From contig PHAB01000026.1 in assembly GCA_002840275.1 (NCBI GenBank), positions 1 to 32,377 of the forward strand: a DNA stretch of 32,377 nt, written 5' to 3'. The DNA is from Firmicutes bacterium HGW-Firmicutes-14. Lineage in GTDB: Bacteria; Bacillota; Thermincolia; Thermincolales; UBA2595. Positions 3,832 to 32,377 of the stretch are shown here, piece after piece (within the stretch, counting starts at the first letter, position 1; the number at the start of each line of letters is the position of its first letter). The translations under genes were made by a program, and so were the position numbers. The notes beneath the pieces were generated by a model. That model did no database searches. It saw only the letters and a list, made by a program, of their open reading frames with translations, and was not told the DNA's origin.

Positions 3832-5520
3832 TTAATCCAGTATCTCAACAATCCCCTTGCTTCCGTTCACCCGGATATGCTGCCCATTCTTAATGACCTG
3901 TGTTGAAATGCCTGTACCGATTACTGCAGGTATACCAAATTCCCTTGATACAATTGCCGGGTGAGACAGCATTCCACCGGCGTCTGTCACCAGACCGCGG
4001 ATCTTGGGGAAAACGGTAATCCACGCCGGACTGGTCATCCGGCACACCAGGATATCACCGGGCTTTATCTTGTCAAATTCATTGGGGGATTTGACAAGAA
4101 CCGCTGTCCCTTCCACTGATCCCGGAGAACCGGGAATTCCCCTGAATTCTTTTTGTTCCAGTTTGAATTGGTCTCTCTCAGCCTTTTCCGGGAATCCCCA
4201 AAGCCCCTTATATGGTTCTTCGTAATTCGACCATTGGGTAACAGTGCCAATCCAGTCGGGAGGTGATATTTTATCGGCGTCCTCATTCTCTTTCCTTCTT
4301 CTGGCCACTGTCTGTTTGGCGTCTAACAGGTCAGGTGAAGCAAACAGGGTTCTTAATTCATTGTACTGCAAGTAAATGATATCATCCGGCCGGTCTAACA
4401 ATCCCATTTTTACCAGGAGTTCGCCGATTTTCATTAACAGTATCCTGCCCCTGGCATGACAGCCCTGGTCAATCCAGAAATGGTGGTTAGGAGTCAGGGG
4501 CTGCATGGGCATAGCCAGGTCAAGAGCCTGTTGCAGCGCCTTTTTCTTTTCGTCGTCCTGCAACCGGTCGAACATGGCCTTAATCGAATCTTCCATGCCC
4601 TTTTTGGTTTTTTGAACTTCTTTTTCCACATCATATTCTGTTTCCAGGTAGGTCTTGATTAATTCTATTACCGGTATAGGGTTTTCCAGCCAGGTTTCAA
4701 ACAGGTATTCATGAGGATATATGGTTTTGTATCCAAATTCTTTTACGTATTCATCAAGTTTTTGCATGAATTCTGCTGCCTCGGCCGATTTTTTCAGCCT
4801 CTCGTAAATGTAAACAACCTCTTCCTCTTCTTCAAAAATCCTGCTTACCTGAGGGCTGCCCTTGACATAATCCCGCAAATCAGTTATACCCCTGATAGAA
4901 TCCCAGTTTTTATCATCAACTGAAACCAAAATCCGGCCGATCTCTTCTTCGTCAATTTGCCCAAATGCCTGGTGGTAAGCTACCCTAAACTCAATAGTGG
5001 ACTGAAACTGGGCCAGGTTTAAAATCCAGTGAAGTTTAAAATGCCTGATGTAAATATCGATATAGTCTTCCAAAAGAATCATCAGTTCTTCAAATGTGGC
5101 GTTTGCATAATCAAAATTGTCCATATACTCATAGTTTTTCTTTATTTCCGGCAAGAGCCGGTCATTCCACCACTTAAGGAAGTTCCGCGCATATACAGGC
5201 ATTATCCGTCCGTAGTACTGCCCTGTTGCCGGTAATTCTTCCGGCTCCCGCGGTTTGATGGCTGTGTAAATATACCGGTTTGTTACTTTCCCCAGCCACT
5301 CTTTGCCAAAGGGCGCCCAAAACCGGCGGTACATGTATTCACAGGTTTCCCCCCACCACGGGGTTAGGGTTTCAAACATTGGTGAAACGGGGTTGGGGCA
5401 GTGTAAATCATCATAAAACCAGTGAAACTTCTTTTCATCCTCATTTGCCCATTCCACGGGAAAGCGGTCATCACCAAAATACGTTTTTAACACTTTTGAA
5501 CCAAAAACCGTTTCGCTCAT
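3832..5520 (-). CDS. PEP-synthase-like phosphotransferase, substrate-binding and phosphohistidine half
   Basis: This 562-residue protein corresponds to the C-terminal part of small-molecule dikinases of the PEP synthase / rifampin phosphotransferase / phenylphosphate synthase group. Residues 1 to about 450 form a large mainly helical region. The last 90 residues are the swivelling phosphohistidine domain with the signature GGMLSHPAIVSRE, in which His520 is the expected phosphorylated residue. It has no ATP-grasp domain; that half is encoded separately at 7918-8880 in the same operon, as in phenylphosphate synthase. It also lacks the C-terminal PEP/pyruvate-binding TIM barrel of PEP synthase. 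The partner substrate is therefore probably another small molecule, bound by the helical region. A GGGGAGGT ribosome binding site precedes the ATG. The substrate is unknown. Confidence 0.85.
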   Translation of the reverse strand: MSETVFGSKVLKTYFGDDRFPVEWANEDEKKFHWFYDDLHCPNPVSPMFETLTPWWGETCEYMYRRFWAPFGKEWLGKVTNRYIYTAIKPREPEELPATGQYYGRIMPVYARNFLKWWNDRLLPEIKKNYEYMDNFDYANATFEELMILLEDYIDIYIRHFKLHWILNLAQFQSTIEFRVAYHQAFGQIDEEEIGRILVSVDDKNWDSIRGITDLRDYVKGSPQVSRIFEEEEEVVYIYERLKKSAEAAEFMQKLDEYVKEFGYKTIYPHEYLFETWLENPIPVIELIKTYLETEYDVEKEVQKTKKGMEDSIKAMFDRLQDDEKKKALQQALDLAMPMQPLTPNHHFWIDQGCHARGRILLMKIGELLVKMGLLDRPDDIIYLQYNELRTLFASPDLLDAKQTVARRRKENEDADKISPPDWIGTVTQWSNYEEPYKGLWGFPEKAERDQFKLEQKEFRGIPGSPGSVEGTAVLVKSPNEFDKIKPGDILVCRMTSPAWITVFPKIRGLVTDAGGMLSHPAIVSREFGIPAVIGTGISTQVIKNGQHIRVNGSKGIVEILD

Positions 5521-18685: not shown

Positions 18686-21600
18686 TTACTTGTACCAAAT
18701 TTCGGTCCTGTAACCATACGAAGTTGGTCCGGCTCCGTCACTCAACTCAGTACTGTAGCATTTTACTGTAACATATCTTGCCTGTTTCTCAAATTCGGCT
18801 GAAATAACCGCGGCGCCGGGCTGGGGAGCATCGGACATGAGCTGCCAGCCGTTGGCAGTTAACTGCTCATTATAATAGCTCCATAATTCATCTATGGTTA
18901 TATCATGTCTCCTGTTGGAAAATACCACTTGCCCTGCCTCGTAACCGGCGGGAGTACTAGTATCACCGTTAAAAATGGAGGCCTCAATGGGTAAGGTCCA
19001 TGCAAAACCGCTGTAAATTGGAATATCAGCCGGCACTTTGTCGACAAATAATATATTATGTCCTTGAGTATGACAGCCTGCACAATTCAGGTTATTGGCA
19101 GCAATGGTCCGTTTTACCTTATTGTCTGCAGAGCTTGTATGGCAGGTCTCACAGTTATAGTCCTTATCAGGATTGGTTTTGGGATTGTTTAAATGCTCTT
19201 GAGACAAAGCGCTCACATGGCAGGTCTGGCAATTACTGTCAAGGTCACCGGTATGAAGTGATTCGTGGTCAGCCATCCCGTGGCAGGCCGAGCAGTTCTT
19301 GTTTTTGTCTGTAATAGCAGCCATAACGCCTGGATCTGTACTCTTGTGGCAGGTATTGCAGGTAATGGATCCGCCGTCTTGGTCAACCCTTCCTTCCCGC
19401 GCATGTTCCCTGGTGAGTGAAAGGGCATGGCAATCATTACAGCTTGACTCTGCTGTTTTGTGAAGTTCGGGAATGTCATGGTTGTTGAGAATTCTGGTGG
19501 GTTTAACCAGGGCCCCGGACCAGCCAAGAACAGGTGAATTAGGTTGATGACAGATTACACAATCCCACATCTCCCGGTTTTCCAGTACCCTGAAAGCCTT
19601 GGTAGTATCATAGTTCTGCAGCCGGTATTTGATATTGGGAGTGGAACCGTGCGGGGCTTCATCTATCCAGCCGCCGCTTCCATCTTCTTCGCCGTGACAC
19701 TGCCAGCATTCAGCCGGATATGAAATATAACTGTGGCAGGCATAACACCGGTTGTCACTGTGACTGCCATAGAAGGATACATTCTTGTGCAGGCTCTGGA
19801 AAGGTATCGCAGATTTAGGATACGTTTCGTGACAGGCAGAACAGCTTTCCATGCCGGAGTCTGCCATTTCCGGATAGGTGCTGATATAGAACGTCCAGTT
19901 TAAGCTTGTGGACAGGCCTCCATTGTCTTGTGCTGAGACTGATACATTATAGTAGGCTTCATTGGGTAAGGCTTCGGCAGGAGTGTATGTCAGGCTGCCG
20001 GAAACCGGATCATAATCAAAATTTACATCCTGCCCATTCAGTTTCATTACCACCGAAGCAGGGTCTATGCCGGTGTTAACATCTTTCACATTTACCGTAA
20101 TGGGGGATGTTGTATCTGATATATAGTTTTTGGGCTGCCAATTGGTGATGGAAGGCTTGGATTCAACATTTACTGTCCACGTCCTGCTGTCAGAGTATCC
20201 AAACACATTACCCCATGAGAGAGAGAGGGTGTGCTGACCGTCAGGAATTATGCCCGAATAATTAATATAGACCTTTTTCTTGCTTCTTACTAAATAATCT
20301 CCCGAACAGGAATCTATATATCCGTCATACCTGATATTGGCCGGAATTACCTGTCCATTTAGAGTTACTGCCGTATCAGGGGCAATATCAACCACATCTG
20401 TCAGTTCTGCGGAAAATTTCAGGTATCCATCAGTAATTGTTTTACCGTCAACGCCCATTACTGCCTTTAAAAGAGGGGCCGTGTCGGACATGGTGAAGAT
20501 CCATTTGGCGGTCCCGACATTTCCTGATGTGTCTGCAGCCGACACGAAAACCGAATAGTTGCCTGTGCTAAAGTCAAAATCATATTTAATAATTCCGGTT
20601 GCAGGGTCATAAGTATAATTTACGTTAGAGTTATTAATCTTCATTACTATGGACGCGGGATTAATCCCGGATTCATCAGTAACCCTTGCAGATACGGCTG
20701 AGATACTTCCCGTCTGAGTTCCGTCTGCCGGGGTAATTTCTGAGAAGACCGGTTTGGACGCAACATTGAAGGACCACTGTTTGGTGAGGACATTCCCGCT
20801 GACATCCGCTATGCTGATCTCTGCGGTATGGGGTCCGTCGCTAAGATTTGCATGATACTCCAGGATACCTTCTTTATAGCTTTGAACATAATAGTAACTG
20901 GTTCCCGTACAGGTGTCCACCAGCCACTTACCTTTGTAGCTAAAGACAGGCGTCACTGGAATACCGTCAATTTTCATGGCGGCCGAATTGTTATTCAGGT
21001 TATCATAAGTATCCCTGACATTTACTGATATTTTGGGGGCGGTAGTACCGACAGAGGCGCCGTCCTGGGGTGAAAGGCTGATCAATTGGGGAGTCCTGTC
21101 CACTGAAAAGGACCATGTCGTTGAATTGTTTGTCCCTAAGCTTGGATTGCTGACCGCCAGTTCTACGTTATGACTCCCGTCATTCAGCAAATTAACCGGT
21201 GTATAGCTGATTTTGTATGTACCTGCCAGGCTGCCGGGATTTATAACGGGAATAACCTGTTCCCCGTCAACTGACATCTGTACGTCAGCTGCGGAAATAA
21301 CCCCCTCCGTGACAGCTGCCAGAACTTCGATGAGGGGTTTCCCGGCCCCGGTAACTGAACCGTCTGCCAGAATCCGGGAACTGAAACCGGCGGTTTCAGC
21401 CCTGGTCCTGACGTTGAATGACCAGGTAACAGTTGACGGAGTACCGTTCTTGTCGGAAATACTCAATTCTACCGTATGCTGGCCATGGGCCAGGTTCGTT
21501 GCATTAAACTGCACCGTTCCCTCTTTATTGGTTTGGGTAACCCAGTATTGCTGCCCGGTGCAGGTATCAGTTACCCAGTATCCCTTGTATTTGAAGGAGG

Positions 21601-21862
21601 GACTTACTGCCTGCCCGTCAATCTTCATTGAAATTGTGCCAATATTGAGGTTATCGGTGGAATCTTTGATGTAGGCTGAGATGGTAAGATTGGGACTTTC
21701 AATAGTTGCTCCGTTTAGTGGTGTTAAATTGCTAAAAGTAATTGTCCCGGCAGCAGCTACTACAACCGTAGTCATTATTAGTACTAATACTAACATACTG
21801 ACCCAAATCAATCGCCTGACCGGTGTCATAGAGTGATAAGCCCTGACAATTTTTCTCCCCAT
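18686..21862 (-). CDS. Secreted decahaem c-type cytochrome with six Ig-like modules
   Basis: This 1058-residue exported protein has an N-terminal signal or anchor segment at about residues 15-37, ending VVVAAAG. Six Ig-like modules of about 90-110 residues follow, each closing with WSFNV or a similar strand. Ten haem-binding CxxCH motifs then run in a 270-residue stretch (CSACH, CYACH, CWQCH, CVICH, CNDCH, CNTCH, CSACH, CQTCH, CETCH, CAGCH). A compact domain of about 115 residues without haem motifs ends the chain. The build suggests an electron carrier held out from the Gram-positive surface on an Ig-like stalk, for extracellular electron transfer; that role is inferred. Modules 1, 3 and 5 contain an unusual DTCTG or DSCSG cysteine loop. 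The ATG at 21860-21862 has GGGGGG upstream. It forms a single-gene unit. Confidence 0.9.
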   Translation of the reverse strand: MGRKIVRAYHSMTPVRRLIWVSMLVLVLIMTTVVVAAAGTITFSNLTPLNGATIESPNLTISAYIKDSTDNLNIGTISMKIDGQAVSPSFKYKGYWVTDTCTGQQYWVTQTNKEGTVQFNATNLAHGQHTVELSISDKNGTPSTVTWSFNVRTRAETAGFSSRILADGSVTGAGKPLIEVLAAVTEGVISAADVQMSVDGEQVIPVINPGSLAGTYKISYTPVNLLNDGSHNVELAVSNPSLGTNNSTTWSFSVDRTPQLISLSPQDGASVGTTAPKISVNVRDTYDNLNNNSAAMKIDGIPVTPVFSYKGKWLVDTCTGTSYYYVQSYKEGILEYHANLSDGPHTAEISIADVSGNVLTKQWSFNVASKPVFSEITPADGTQTGSISAVSARVTDESGINPASIVMKINNSNVNYTYDPATGIIKYDFDFSTGNYSVFVSAADTSGNVGTAKWIFTMSDTAPLLKAVMGVDGKTITDGYLKFSAELTDVVDIAPDTAVTLNGQVIPANIRYDGYIDSCSGDYLVRSKKKVYINYSGIIPDGQHTLSLSWGNVFGYSDSRTWTVNVESKPSITNWQPKNYISDTTSPITVNVKDVNTGIDPASVVMKLNGQDVNFDYDPVSGSLTYTPAEALPNEAYYNVSVSAQDNGGLSTSLNWTFYISTYPEMADSGMESCSACHETYPKSAIPFQSLHKNVSFYGSHSDNRCYACHSYISYPAECWQCHGEEDGSGGWIDEAPHGSTPNIKYRLQNYDTTKAFRVLENREMWDCVICHQPNSPVLGWSGALVKPTRILNNHDIPELHKTAESSCNDCHALSLTREHAREGRVDQDGGSITCNTCHKSTDPGVMAAITDKNKNCSACHGMADHESLHTGDLDSNCQTCHVSALSQEHLNNPKTNPDKDYNCETCHTSSADNKVKRTIAANNLNCAGCHTQGHNILFVDKVPADIPIYSGFAWTLPIEASIFNGDTSTPAGYEAGQVVFSNRRHDITIDELWSYYNEQLTANGWQLMSDAPQPGAAVISAEFEKQARYVTVKCYSTELSDGAGPTSYGYRTEIWYK

Positions 21863-22012
21863 ATGCAGCCCCCCATATTCCGGTGAATTCACTTGAATCT
21901 CGCAAAATAAAAAAGACTAAATCATAATCTTATTGTTATCACAGCAATTAGACAAAATGATATAGTCCTAAGTTGATTATGAGAAAGCAGTACAAAGAAG
22001 TGTGCAAAGTAT

Positions 22013-24344: not shown

Positions 24345-25142
24345 CTAAGCCTCATCCTCCCCTTCGGTTGTTCCCAGCCTGTCTTCCTGCTGCGGCCGAT
24401 AAGTGGGAGGCCTGCGGTAACTGGCCCACCAGGGCAGCCTTCCAAAGGCATCTACAGCATCTATCGTTAACGGGGGAGCCCAGGGGGCCAGATAAGATAT
24501 TCCAAAAGACTTGAGACCCGCCATATGGGCTAATATTATCAGGCCTGCAGACGCCAAACCCAATATACCAAAGGCTCCCGATGCAAAATAAAGAAAATAC
24601 CGGGCCAGCCGCCATGCTTGCTCTTTGGATGGATTGGCTGTGGAAAAAGAAGCCAGGGCTGTAAAAATAACCACAACCACTGTCACCCCGCCTACAAGAC
24701 CGGCTTGTATAGCAGCCTGACCCAGGACAATGCCGCCGCCGATACCTAAAATCACGTTTATGTTGGCCGGCAGTCTGACGCTTGCCTCCCGGAATATTTC
24801 AAAGATAAGGAGGGTAACAAAAACTTCTATTACTGCCGGAAATGGCATTTGAGTACGCCCGGATGCAATCACCTGGACTAAAAACGGTGGTAAAAGTTCA
24901 GGATTTACAGTGATTACGGCAATGTACAATCCCGGTAAAAAAATGGATGTAGCAGTACCTATAAACCTGACCAGCCTGAGAAATGTCCCAATCCAGTAAT
25001 TAAAACTGAAATCCTCGGGGGTCTGGTAAAACTCATTGGAGGTTGCCGGCACAACCAGGGCAATTATCCCCTTATTGGAATTGCTTATTACAGAATCAAC
25101 AAAGAGCCCCTTTTTAACTCTGGGAACATATAACAACGACAT
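24345..25142 (-). pseudogene. GerA-type germination protein, N-terminal half missing
   Basis: The 265 residues correspond only to the membrane part of a GerAA-type subunit. FYQTPEDFSFNYWIGTFLRLVRF matches the region just before the first membrane helix of the family, and about five hydrophobic segments follow. Complete A subunits are around 480-520 residues with a soluble N-terminal domain, which is absent. There is no ribosome binding site before the ATG, and a strong terminator (25160-25194) lies just upstream and would stop incoming transcription. The decayed toxin-antitoxin genes begin right beyond it, suggesting that a rearrangement removed the front of the gene. Expression of the intact B and C genes is therefore doubtful. 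A functional short variant is possible but less likely. Confidence 0.75.
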
Positions 25143-29980: not shown

Positions 29981-31099
29981 CTAATAATATCCAAAAGGGT
30001 CATAGTTAATTCGGGATACATGTACAGCCACCGGACTTTCTTCCTTGGCCAGGGCTTCTCCCAATATCCTGGCAATCTCCCCAGCAATGGGATATTCAGT
30101 GGCATAATGTCCCGCATCTATAAAATTCATTCCCATGGTCAGAACCTCCTGGGCTTCGTGGTATTTCAGGTCCCCGGTAACAAATACGTCAGCTCCTAAA
30201 AAAGCCGCTCTATGTATAAGCTGTGCACCGCTTCCCCCGCATACCGCAACTTTCTTAACCACTGCTTCGGGGTTCCCGCCATAGCGCAATGTGGTTATAT
30301 TCAGTGCTTCTTTCACCCTGTCCATGAAATCTCTAAGCTTAACAGGCATTTCCAGCCTCCCGGCTCTCCCCAGGCCCAGTTTTTCCCCCTGGTTGACTAG
30401 AGGATAAATATCATAGGCAACTTCTTCATATGGATGGGCATTGACCATTGCCCTGACAACCCTTTCCACGTGTTTTTCCCTGACTATGGTCTCCAGCCTT
30501 ACCTCGTCGGCATGTTCAAGTTCACCTACCTGTCCGATGAACGGGTTACAGCCTTCGGCCGCTTTAAACGTACCTGTTCCCCGGACGGAAAAAGTGCAGT
30601 CCGAGTAATTCCCAATCCAACCGGCACCGGCCCTCGCCATTGCTTCGCGCACGGCATCGGCGTGGTCTTCAGGTATGAATACCGTTATTTTATATAATTT
30701 CTCCACTTTGTCAGGGTTCAAAACCTGTATATCCTTAAGCTTCAGCTTTTCTGCCAGCACCCGGCTGACACCTTCTCTGGCCGAATCCATGTTGGTATGG
30801 GCACAATACACAGCTGTGCCGTTCTTTATTATCTCTGTGATCAGGCCGCCGTGGGGCAGGTCTGCCCTGATATTTTTCATCGGTTTGAAAATCAGCGGGT
30901 GATGGGACACAATCATGCTGACCCCAAGGCCTGCCGCTTCCCGTACTGTTTCCATGGTGACATCCAGGGTCACAAGGATACTGTTCACATCAGAAGACGG
31001 GTCACCTATGTGCAGTCCCACATTGTCCCAATCCTCAGCCAAGCCCTTGGGGGCCATCTGTTCAATTATATTAATTATCGTCTGGCACTTGACAGGCAT
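29981..31099 (-). CDS. Nif3/YqfO-like dinuclear metal-centre protein
   Basis: This 372-residue Nif3-family protein has the metal-binding parts split across its ends: NVGLHIGDPS and VSHHPLIFKP near the N-terminus, and VFVTGDLKYHEAQEV plus DAGHYATE near the C-terminus. A central insert of about 100 residues (roughly 130-230) matches the PII/CutA-like domain of YqfO-type members, giving the longer form typical of Firmicutes. The family is thought to be a GTP cyclohydrolase I type 2 or related hydrolase, but its physiological role is unsettled. The ATG at 31097-31099 has GGAGAGG upstream and lies inside the end of trmK, a 29-base overlap. Confidence 0.9.
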   Translation of the reverse strand: MPVKCQTIINIIEQMAPKGLAEDWDNVGLHIGDPSSDVNSILVTLDVTMETVREAAGLGVSMIVSHHPLIFKPMKNIRADLPHGGLITEIIKNGTAVYCAHTNMDSAREGVSRVLAEKLKLKDIQVLNPDKVEKLYKITVFIPEDHADAVREAMARAGAGWIGNYSDCTFSVRGTGTFKAAEGCNPFIGQVGELEHADEVRLETIVREKHVERVVRAMVNAHPYEEVAYDIYPLVNQGEKLGLGRAGRLEMPVKLRDFMDRVKEALNITTLRYGGNPEAVVKKVAVCGGSGAQLIHRAAFLGADVFVTGDLKYHEAQEVLTMGMNFIDAGHYATEYPIAGEIARILGEALAKEESPVAVHVSRINYDPFGYY

Positions 31100-31778
31100 C
31101 GGCAATCCTCTCCAGTTTCCTGGTCCTCTCCATAAGTCTTTGTTGTTTTATCCCGGTCTCGGGAGATCTGCTCAGCTGCATGGCAGCAATTATCTTTCGA
31201 TTCTTTCTGATTTTAGCTTTAATCATTTCAGCCAGCAGGGGATGTTTTTTTTCAAACAGCCGTGGTCCTATTGAAACCAGCGTCCGGTCTGTCTCCGTCT
31301 CCCTCCCCGGGACAGCCAGTATTATTTCATATATATGGCCGTCTTCCCTGACCAGGTCTTCATCTTCTATTCGCCAGCCGTTGGCAGCCAGCCATTCCCT
31401 CAAATCCCCTGAATCACCCATGGGCTGCAGCACAATCCGCTTTAACCGGGCTGCCGTTTCTCCGGCCAATTTCAGGATGTCCCTGATTGTACCTCCCCCC
31501 ATGCCGGCAATGACAGCTGTATCAACTTCTCCGGGCCAGGTTATATCCAGCCCGTCTCCCCGCCTGACCCCAATGCGGTCAGCAAGCCCGGCTTCTCTGA
31601 TATTATTGCAGGCCGCCTCCAGTGGGCCCTCGTTCAGGTCTCCCGCGATAACCCGGGAAGCAATCCCTTCCCTTATGAGGTAGACGGGCAACAGGGCATG
31701 GTCAGTACCGATATCGGCCACTGAACTGCCCGCCGGTATAAAGTTGGCGATACTCATAAGTCTGTGAGGCAGTTTCAT
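31071..31778 (-). CDS. trmK: tRNA (adenine(22)-N1)-methyltransferase
   Basis: This 235-residue SAM-dependent methyltransferase modifies A22 of tRNA. The SAM-binding motif VADIGTDHALLPVYL is at about residues 20-34. The family-specific VIAGMGGGTIRDIL follows near 88, and a coiled C-terminal region closes the chain. Order and overlap with the Nif3-like gene match the conserved Firmicute arrangement, in which sigA/rpoD often lies upstream. No clear ribosome binding site precedes the ATG at 31776-31778. The unusual hairpin array lies just upstream. Confidence 0.9.
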   Translation of the reverse strand: MKLPHRLMSIANFIPAGSSVADIGTDHALLPVYLIREGIASRVIAGDLNEGPLEAACNNIREAGLADRIGVRRGDGLDITWPGEVDTAVIAGMGGGTIRDILKLAGETAARLKRIVLQPMGDSGDLREWLAANGWRIEDEDLVREDGHIYEIILAVPGRETETDRTLVSIGPRLFEKKHPLLAEMIKAKIRKNRKIIAAMQLSRSPETGIKQQRLMERTRKLERIADACQVPDDN

Positions 31779-31894
31779 ATTAATATTATTTCAACATTAA
31801 GGTAATAAAAACCTCCAGGAATAACGAATTTAAAAAATATCATTTTACAGGTATGAGTGAAGGGTTTTTGGATACAATAACTAGCGTAAAGGGT

Positions 31895-32302
31895 TCATAA
31901 CAGCCGAGCGAAGATCATTACAGGCTCTTATCAGGGTCTGTAATGGTCGGGCAAAGGTTATTACAGGGTCATCCAATATGTTACCCTTTGGCTCTGTAAT
32001 AGCCGGAGCGCAGATTATTATGGGCGTCGTATGGGTCTGCAGTGGTCCGAACGATCACTGTGGGCTCAGTAGATGTCCATAATAGTCGGGCCACGATCAT
32101 AATAGGTTCTGGAAGGCTTTATATCCCGGTTAGATTCCGGGATGCCTAAGGGTCTGTAATGGCCGAAAGGTCATTACAGGCTCGGTAGGGGCTTATTATG
32201 GTCTGACAAAGGTTGTTATAGGTTCCGTAAGGTTCCGTAGCAGCCGAAAGGTTGCTGCGGGGTCTGTAGGGATCTATGGCAGCCGGCGGTAGGTTGTTAT
32301 GG
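31895..32302 (+). repeat. Array of nine covarying 11-bp hairpins, about 40-nt period
   Basis: Left and right arms are at 31895-31905/31913-31923, 31938-31948/31956-31966, 31994-32004/32013-32023, 32037-32047/32053-32063, 32077-32087/32095-32105, 32154-32164/32169-32179, 32193-32203/32211-32221, 32235-32245/32250-32260 and 32274-32284/32292-32302. A divergent tenth hairpin fills the gap at 32114-32147. Arm sequences differ, yet pairing is kept: the units starting at 31938, 32037, 32154, 32235 and 32274 pair at all 11 positions. Loops are GAAA or five to eight bases. G-T pairs outnumber A-C mismatches on the plus strand (about 22 to 8), favouring a plus-strand RNA. Nothing recognisable lies at 31779-31894 or 32303-32377, and no coding frame spans the array. 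Confidence 0.75.
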
Positions 32303-32377
32303 GCTCTTTCAGTTATTGGAAAGAAAAGCCCCTGACTGTGTTCTTACGCAAAAACCGAACTCAATCAGTTCCTGTTC

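Follow-up and report, generated by a model that had tools for sequence, protein, structure and literature searches.

A branched RNA with nine helical cassettes and a forespore-type promoter in many Bacillota

OLE RNA (RF01071) is a large, structured, free RNA of anaerobic or extremophilic Bacillota with extensive covariation, and ROOL and GOLLD are ornate RNAs of hundreds of nucleotides that assemble without protein (PMC12286853). The raiA motif RNA (ModT), which has been studied in C. difficile, is likewise structured and widespread in Bacillota (PMC11706538). In the forespore, two RNAs of Bacillus have been described: CsfG of Bacillus subtilis, which is made under sigma-F and sigma-G, is conserved in spore formers and co-precipitates with Hfq (PMC3574147), and Bvs196/S547, a forespore-specific RNA with a sigma-F/sigma-G promoter and a conserved structure. 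Deletion of Bvs196 lowers the heat and UV resistance of spores (PMC9147052), and forespore RNAs can therefore matter.

Here we establish by computation the fold, strand, conservation, promoter motif and repeated helix code of another RNA, found in the window, by which we mean the whole stretch of 32,377 nucleotides analysed from Firmicutes bacterium HGW-Firmicutes-14. It has very clear covariation and is present in about 42% of the sampled genomes of its phylum, yet it is in no RNA family database. With membership of an Rfam 15 family defined as a covariance-model score above the gathering score of that family, the window matches only RNase P, elsewhere along its length; Rfam gave no match for the element (E ≤ 5), nine homologous loci or L117 (E ≤ 2). 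A literature search that covered mainly open-access papers found no description of the RNA. A full-length OLE RNA lies in the same genome (C22:65021-65655, 502.5 bits), so that two large ornate RNAs coexist there; it is the only match of the OLE covariance model in the genome, with none at the present locus.

Fold, covariation and a shared wobble code

The element is one branched, single-copy structured RNA of about 420 nt on the plus strand (31888-32309; Table 1). Its first arm pairs with its last to form the closing stem P1, which encloses two single-helix arms (1 and 2) and three two-storey ones (3, 4 and 5). In each of the latter an internal loop separates the proximal helix from a distal one capped by a short loop. 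Closing stem and arms together comprise nine helices of 15-18 bp (18 in P1, 15 in one, 16 in the others), with 145 base pairs, 36 of them G-U, and no mismatch. Variants of GAGCNAA form the six junction linkers, and GNRA terminal loops cap arms 4 and 5. Folded on the plus strand, the segment 31895-32310 reaches -226.6 kcal/mol, far beyond chance (z = -17.4 against shuffles), whereas the minus strand attains only z = -3.9.

An earlier note on this DNA had seen arms with a period of about 40 nt, varied in sequence yet mutually matching, GAAA loops, and a preference for G-T over A-C that suggested an RNA, perhaps of many hairpins, transcribed from the strand opposite to that of trmK. These observations, and the RNA, strand and covariation drawn from them, are borne out; the array of hairpins upstream of trmK gives way to a single branched fold. 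The helices are 16 bp rather than the 11 bp described, and the nine local hairpins were a partial view, because every arm prefers its partner in the global fold: in a duplex-energy matrix, the best partner of each of the 18 helix arms is the model partner (18/18), despite a similar consensus in all arms. What had been taken for a divergent tenth hairpin belongs to arm 4, as an insert that varies among homologues, and Tandem Repeats Finder reports no array at the locus. That note did not anticipate the forespore-type promoter, the shared wobble code or the broad distribution described below.

Table 1. Coordinates of the RNA, its promoter and its surroundings in the window
Feature	Position	Strand	Basis or remark
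trmK, divergent neighbour outside the element	31071..31778	-	ORF; name carried over from first reading
-35-like element GTATG, sigma-F-type promoter	31851..31855	+	motif GYATA-N14-GGNNANANTA, 10/11 in window
-10-like element GGATACAATA, same sigma-F-type promoter	31870..31879	+	ends 8 nt before P1; enriched motif in homologous loci
Structured RNA, first to last base pair	31888..32309	+	fold, profile, covariation; transcript start inferred a few nt upstream
P1 closing stem, 5' strand, 18 bp	31888..31905	+	partner 32292-32309; 95.5% paired across 47 homologues
Junction linker 1, GAGCGAA (family consensus GAGCNAA)	31906..31912	+	linker comparison
Arm 1, helix 31913-31928/31933-31948	31913..31948	+	fold and covariation
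Junction linker 2, GGGCAAA; G31951 covaries with C32009 of linker 3	31949..31955	+	phylogenetic-null test
Arm 2, helix 31956-31971/31989-32004	31956..32004	+	fold and covariation
Junction linker 3, GGAGCGCA	32005..32012	+	covariation and linker comparison
Arm 3: proximal 32013-32028/32072-32087, 3x3 internal loop, distal 32032-32047/32053-32068	32013..32087	+	fold and covariation
Junction linker 4, GGGCCAC (consensus GAGCTAA)	32088..32094	+	linker comparison
Arm 4: proximal 32095-32110/32188-32203, distal 32150-32164/32169-32183, GNRA loop	32095..32203	+	fold and covariation
Variable insert within arm 4	32113..32146	+	length and sequence vary between homologues (alignment)
Junction linker 5, TGACAAA (consensus GAGCAAA)	32204..32210	+	linker comparison
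Arm 5: proximal 32211-32226/32269-32284, GUA/GUA internal loop, distal 32230-32245/32250-32265, GAAA loop	32211..32284	+	covariation; source of covariance model R1
Junction linker 6, GGCGGTA	32285..32291	+	linker comparison
P1 closing stem, 3' strand	32292..32309	+	fold and covariation
Left half of long palindrome running into contig C37	32311..32377	+	97-bp contig overlap; joined-contig fold -91.9 kcal/mol

Across 47 full-length homologues, 96.7% of cells retain the structure derived from the window, against 32-43% for slid versions of the structure on the same sequences. Both sides have changed in 115 of the 145 pairs, giving 1214 such cells, and none of 500 shuffles attains the observed pairing and double-change values. 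G-U cells outnumber A-C cells by 1707 to 50, which fixes the plus strand and shows that selection acts on the RNA. Relatedness inflates covariation counts, and we therefore made a phylogenetic-null test in the manner of R-scape, in which the substitutions of each column are scattered randomly on the tree. The structure accounts for 23 of the 24 column pairs that are significant with 46 sequences. With 89 sequences of less than 95% identity and 12 replicates, 48 column pairs lie above every null pair and 47 of these are in the model, at least three in each helix, so that all nine helices are supported; covariation above phylogenetic expectation, for which the earlier note had suggested looking, is thus present. 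The sole off-model pair, 31951-32009, joins linkers 2 and 3 (C-G in 55 sequences, G-C in 30) and extends arm 2; no other covariation of the kind expected of receptors or kissing loops emerged from the 89-sequence test. The locus is almost certainly a conserved structured RNA gene.

Superposition of the nine helices reveals a code common to all. Position 1 is G-C in 89% of paired cells and position 2 is A-U or G-C (R-Y) in 98%, while wobble pairs fill position 3 in 80%, position 12 in 90% and position 14 in 83%, with U.G at 3, G.U at 12 and U.G at 14 in each helix; positions 4-11 are free in sequence and covary. Eleven base pairs make about one turn of an A-form helix, so that the wobbles at 3 and 14, which are 11 bp apart, lie about one turn from each other and face the same side of the helix. 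The covariance model of arm 5 also matches arm 3 of the window (E = 9.5e-17), from which we conclude that the cassettes share a relationship.

Distribution and genomic setting

BLASTN places the element in 21 of 61 genomes, its own included. Identity is 84-86% along the whole element in four further genera of the family, 79% at the level of the order and 64-69% in the rest of the phylum. A conserved DNA pattern retrieved 37 stretches belonging to named genomes, including Pelotomaculum, Desulfofundulus, Desulforudis, Desulfovirgula, Ammonifex, Carboxydocella, Thermincola and Tepidanaerobacteraceae; nearly all of these stretches match, at full length, a profile made from 17 sequences. The pattern matched nothing in viral contigs, on which ground we rejected a phage origin.

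The search of relatives with a covariance model, also envisaged in the earlier note, used R1, a model of the 3' module (arm 5). Within the class, R1 has matches in 9 of the 10 genomes searched; across the phylum it detects the RNA in 168 of the 398 genomes sampled (118 of 266 genera), and its best E-values reach 1e-30. Among 12 genomes assigned to a Bacillus/Paenibacillus type by SpoIIE score or size, one has a clear match (G358) and the other 11 remain at background (best E 0.29). In G358, whose SpoIIE match is very strong, the RNA (at L118) is AT-rich and divergent, and its arms are rearranged or more numerous. The window's own genome has one copy, and some genomes have two or more: one MAG carries two full copies 2.6 kb apart (L027:1331-1734 and 3944-4338), and a second, partial copy occurs in another (L055:3087-3202). 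A mini RNA in G045 (L024:4640-4790) consists of the closing stem and arm 5 only, with a weak promoter match (8/11).

The RNA is intergenic, and the largest cluster of shared neighbouring ORFs covers 5 of 43 loci; because neighbouring genes are not conserved, we regard it as a free-standing gene. Flanking genes across loci include spoIVA (in a few lineages), glycerate kinase, TldD, IleS, a LysR regulator and thiC. Downstream genes are convergent in 59 cases and co-oriented in 31, and terminator-like hairpins follow the RNA at 40% of loci as against 3% of random windows. The gene trmK, upstream of which the earlier note had placed its hairpins, is the neighbour in this family only. Cis-regulation of trmK or any other gene was rejected, since neighbours are not conserved and downstream genes are convergent more often than co-oriented. 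At four loci the sporulation gene spoIVA adjoins the RNA convergently (identified by NCBIfam in L026 and L128, and in L030 and L043 through their resemblance to L026).

At the window locus the RNA is divergent from trmK. If the contig overlap is a true join, it is convergent with a gene on contig C37 that looks, by eye, like an MBOAT-type gene. The junction (window 32311-32377 with C37:345105-345287) forms a near-perfect palindrome of about 150 nt, which may explain the assembly break and is probably a terminator region in common with the MBOAT-type gene. Elsewhere in the window, by eye, a GerA-type spore germination ORF of 265 aa (24345-25142), which may be truncated, lies beside longer GerB- and GerC-like ORFs, and a 1068-aa ORF (18686-21892) with repeats and many CxxCH motifs is a probable surface multihaem cytochrome.

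A forespore-type promoter and sporulation

Upstream of the RNA stands a motif, GYATA-N14-GGNNANANTA, that resembles the sigma-F consensus. Scores of 9/11 or more occur in 83% of 41 upstream regions, compared with 2.4% of windows drawn at random from genomes, 7% of shuffled sequences and no downstream region, and in most of the 41 loci the motif sits at a fixed spot, 5-9 nt before P1. Because the motif had been defined on these loci, 54 further, independent loci from many families were tested: 85% score at least 9/11 and 56% at least 10/11, against 3.3% and 0.4% of random windows. A general sigma-A promoter was rejected, being only slightly enriched (29% versus 13% in shuffles) beside the strong sigma-F motif.

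The sigma-F and sigma-G consensus sequences overlap (PMC7438776). A similar motif, GTATA-N14/15-..ATACTA, precedes the SASP domain of SASP genes in these or related genomes, mostly by 44-54 nt, and 46% reach 10/11 against 3.4%; the GG of the RNA promoter is mostly missing from these motifs, as expected for sigma-G versus sigma-F. At spoIIR, used as a further promoter control, the motif was found in 8% versus 3%, where start positions are perhaps uncertain or the gene is perhaps read in operons.

Within the same 398 genomes, and with a strong SpoIIE match set by us at E < 1e-30, the RNA occurs in 161 of 329 genomes with such a match and in 7 of 69 without (Fisher p = 4e-10, uncorrected for phylogeny and hence confounded). 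About half of the SpoIIE-strong genomes have no RNA match, including nearly all Bacillus/Paenibacillus-type ones tested. In genus g102 (G114 and G378) the RNA is present and SpoIIE was undetected, and the promoter of G114 nevertheless scores 11/11 (L130). With a sigma-F/G-type promoter upstream, as in members of the forespore (sigma-F/sigma-G) regulon, the RNA is very likely to be expressed in the forespore, a compartment with few non-coding RNAs of known role.

Proposed role and comparison with known RNAs

From these sequences we infer transcription, forespore timing, protein binding and role. The locus would encode, as a free-standing gene, a large structured non-coding RNA made in the forespore of many endospore-forming Bacillota and probably transcribed by RNA polymerase with sigma-F, perhaps with sigma-G too. 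The transcript of about 420 nt would fold with its closing stem and five arms round a junction of six near-identical linkers, presenting nine 16-bp helical cassettes in which a common wobble pattern overlies a free, covarying background. Each cassette most likely docks one copy or half-site of a putative double-stranded-RNA-binding protein, which would let the RNA serve the developing spore as a multivalent scaffold or sink. Double-stranded-RNA-binding domains span about 12-16 bp; since one helix length recurs nine times, with the wobble code on one face and free sequence elsewhere, as would be expected if a reader recognised, again and again, the form of each 16-bp rod and a small number of contacts in its groove, multivalent protein docking is the favoured reading.

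Such a scaffold or sponge, mentioned in the earlier note, is thus the leading candidate mechanism, although the wobble pairs could equally serve RNA-RNA packing, and no candidate protein partner emerged from gene neighbourhoods. We give the whole explanation, a forespore-made structured RNA whose nine cassettes act as a multivalent protein scaffold or sink, slightly better than an even chance, and consider the predicted scaffold or sink function by itself evenly balanced between right and wrong. More tentatively, and with rather more doubt than belief, it may represent an unrecognised, widespread class of forespore RNA: a nine-site RNP (or RNA) body, an ancient sporulation component of Clostridia-type Bacillota, with the periodic wobble code as its docking signal.

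The main rival, unlikely in our judgement, is a particle of RNA only, without a dedicated protein, in which helices pack alongside one another or between molecules through periodic wobbles and GNRA loops into a compact or homo-oligomeric body like OLE, ROOL and GOLLD. Known large bacterial RNAs do assemble so (PMC12286853), the wobble pairs are one helical turn apart, the GNRA tetraloops and GUA/GYA internal loops are conserved and the six linkers are alike; but receptor or kissing-loop covariation is limited to the one linker-linker pair, and the same code in every helix, whatever its place, is no less consistent with repeated protein sites.

A decoy is less probable again: 16-bp rods with wobbles would bind RNase III or another double-stranded-RNA enzyme uncut and so protect, or shut down, RNA turnover in the forespore. 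The helices do end at 16 bp, set apart by internal loops or junctions, and wobble pairs may modulate the binding of such enzymes, as they reportedly do in adenovirus VA RNA; proximal and distal helices together, however, make rods of about 35 bp that may well be cut. We consider it very improbable that the RNA pairs in trans with spore mRNAs through its loops and linkers, since, although CsfG and Bvs196 are regarded as small RNAs, nearly all of it is paired and what is unpaired is mostly loops of 4-5 nt and linkers of 7-8 nt of one repeated sequence. A fast-evolving palindromic DNA repeat (REP/MITE-like or a recombination site) with no RNA function, an idea of the earlier note to which similar palindromic arms and the two copies in L027 might lend colour, is refuted for practical purposes by compensated, strand-specific pairing (G-U tolerance of 1707:50), by specific long-range pairing conserved across the phylum, by a promoter of its own and by a single copy in its own genome against the many dispersed copies typical of REP/MITE.

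For the preferred reading, a multivalent protein-docking RNA, the wobble code repeated nine times offers a simple, testable hypothesis of how one RNA could array many partner copies; if true, an RNA would join the known components of endospore formation across much of the phylum.

Among known systems, raiA/ModT is a separate family, and the present RNA has no Rfam match. It resembles OLE as a large, structured, free RNA of such Bacillota with extensive covariation, but OLE is about 600 nt long, at a separate locus, and Rfam models fail to match the present RNA. The ornateness and length of ROOL and GOLLD are also shared, whereas those RNAs are often found in phages or prophages and the present one, unmatched in viral contigs and in Rfam, has another fold. 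Bvs196/S547 is alike in forespore-type promoter and conserved structure, and differs by description in size (294 nt), place (hinT-ecsA, reported in Bacillus) and structure; the linker motif of the present RNA was absent beside HIT genes in six Bacillus-type genomes. CsfG has the forespore setting predicted for the present RNA, but it is an RNA of 136 nt at ylbG-ylbH with CU-rich loops, whereas the present RNA extends over about 420 nt among unrelated neighbours and is built of GNRA loops and helical cassettes.
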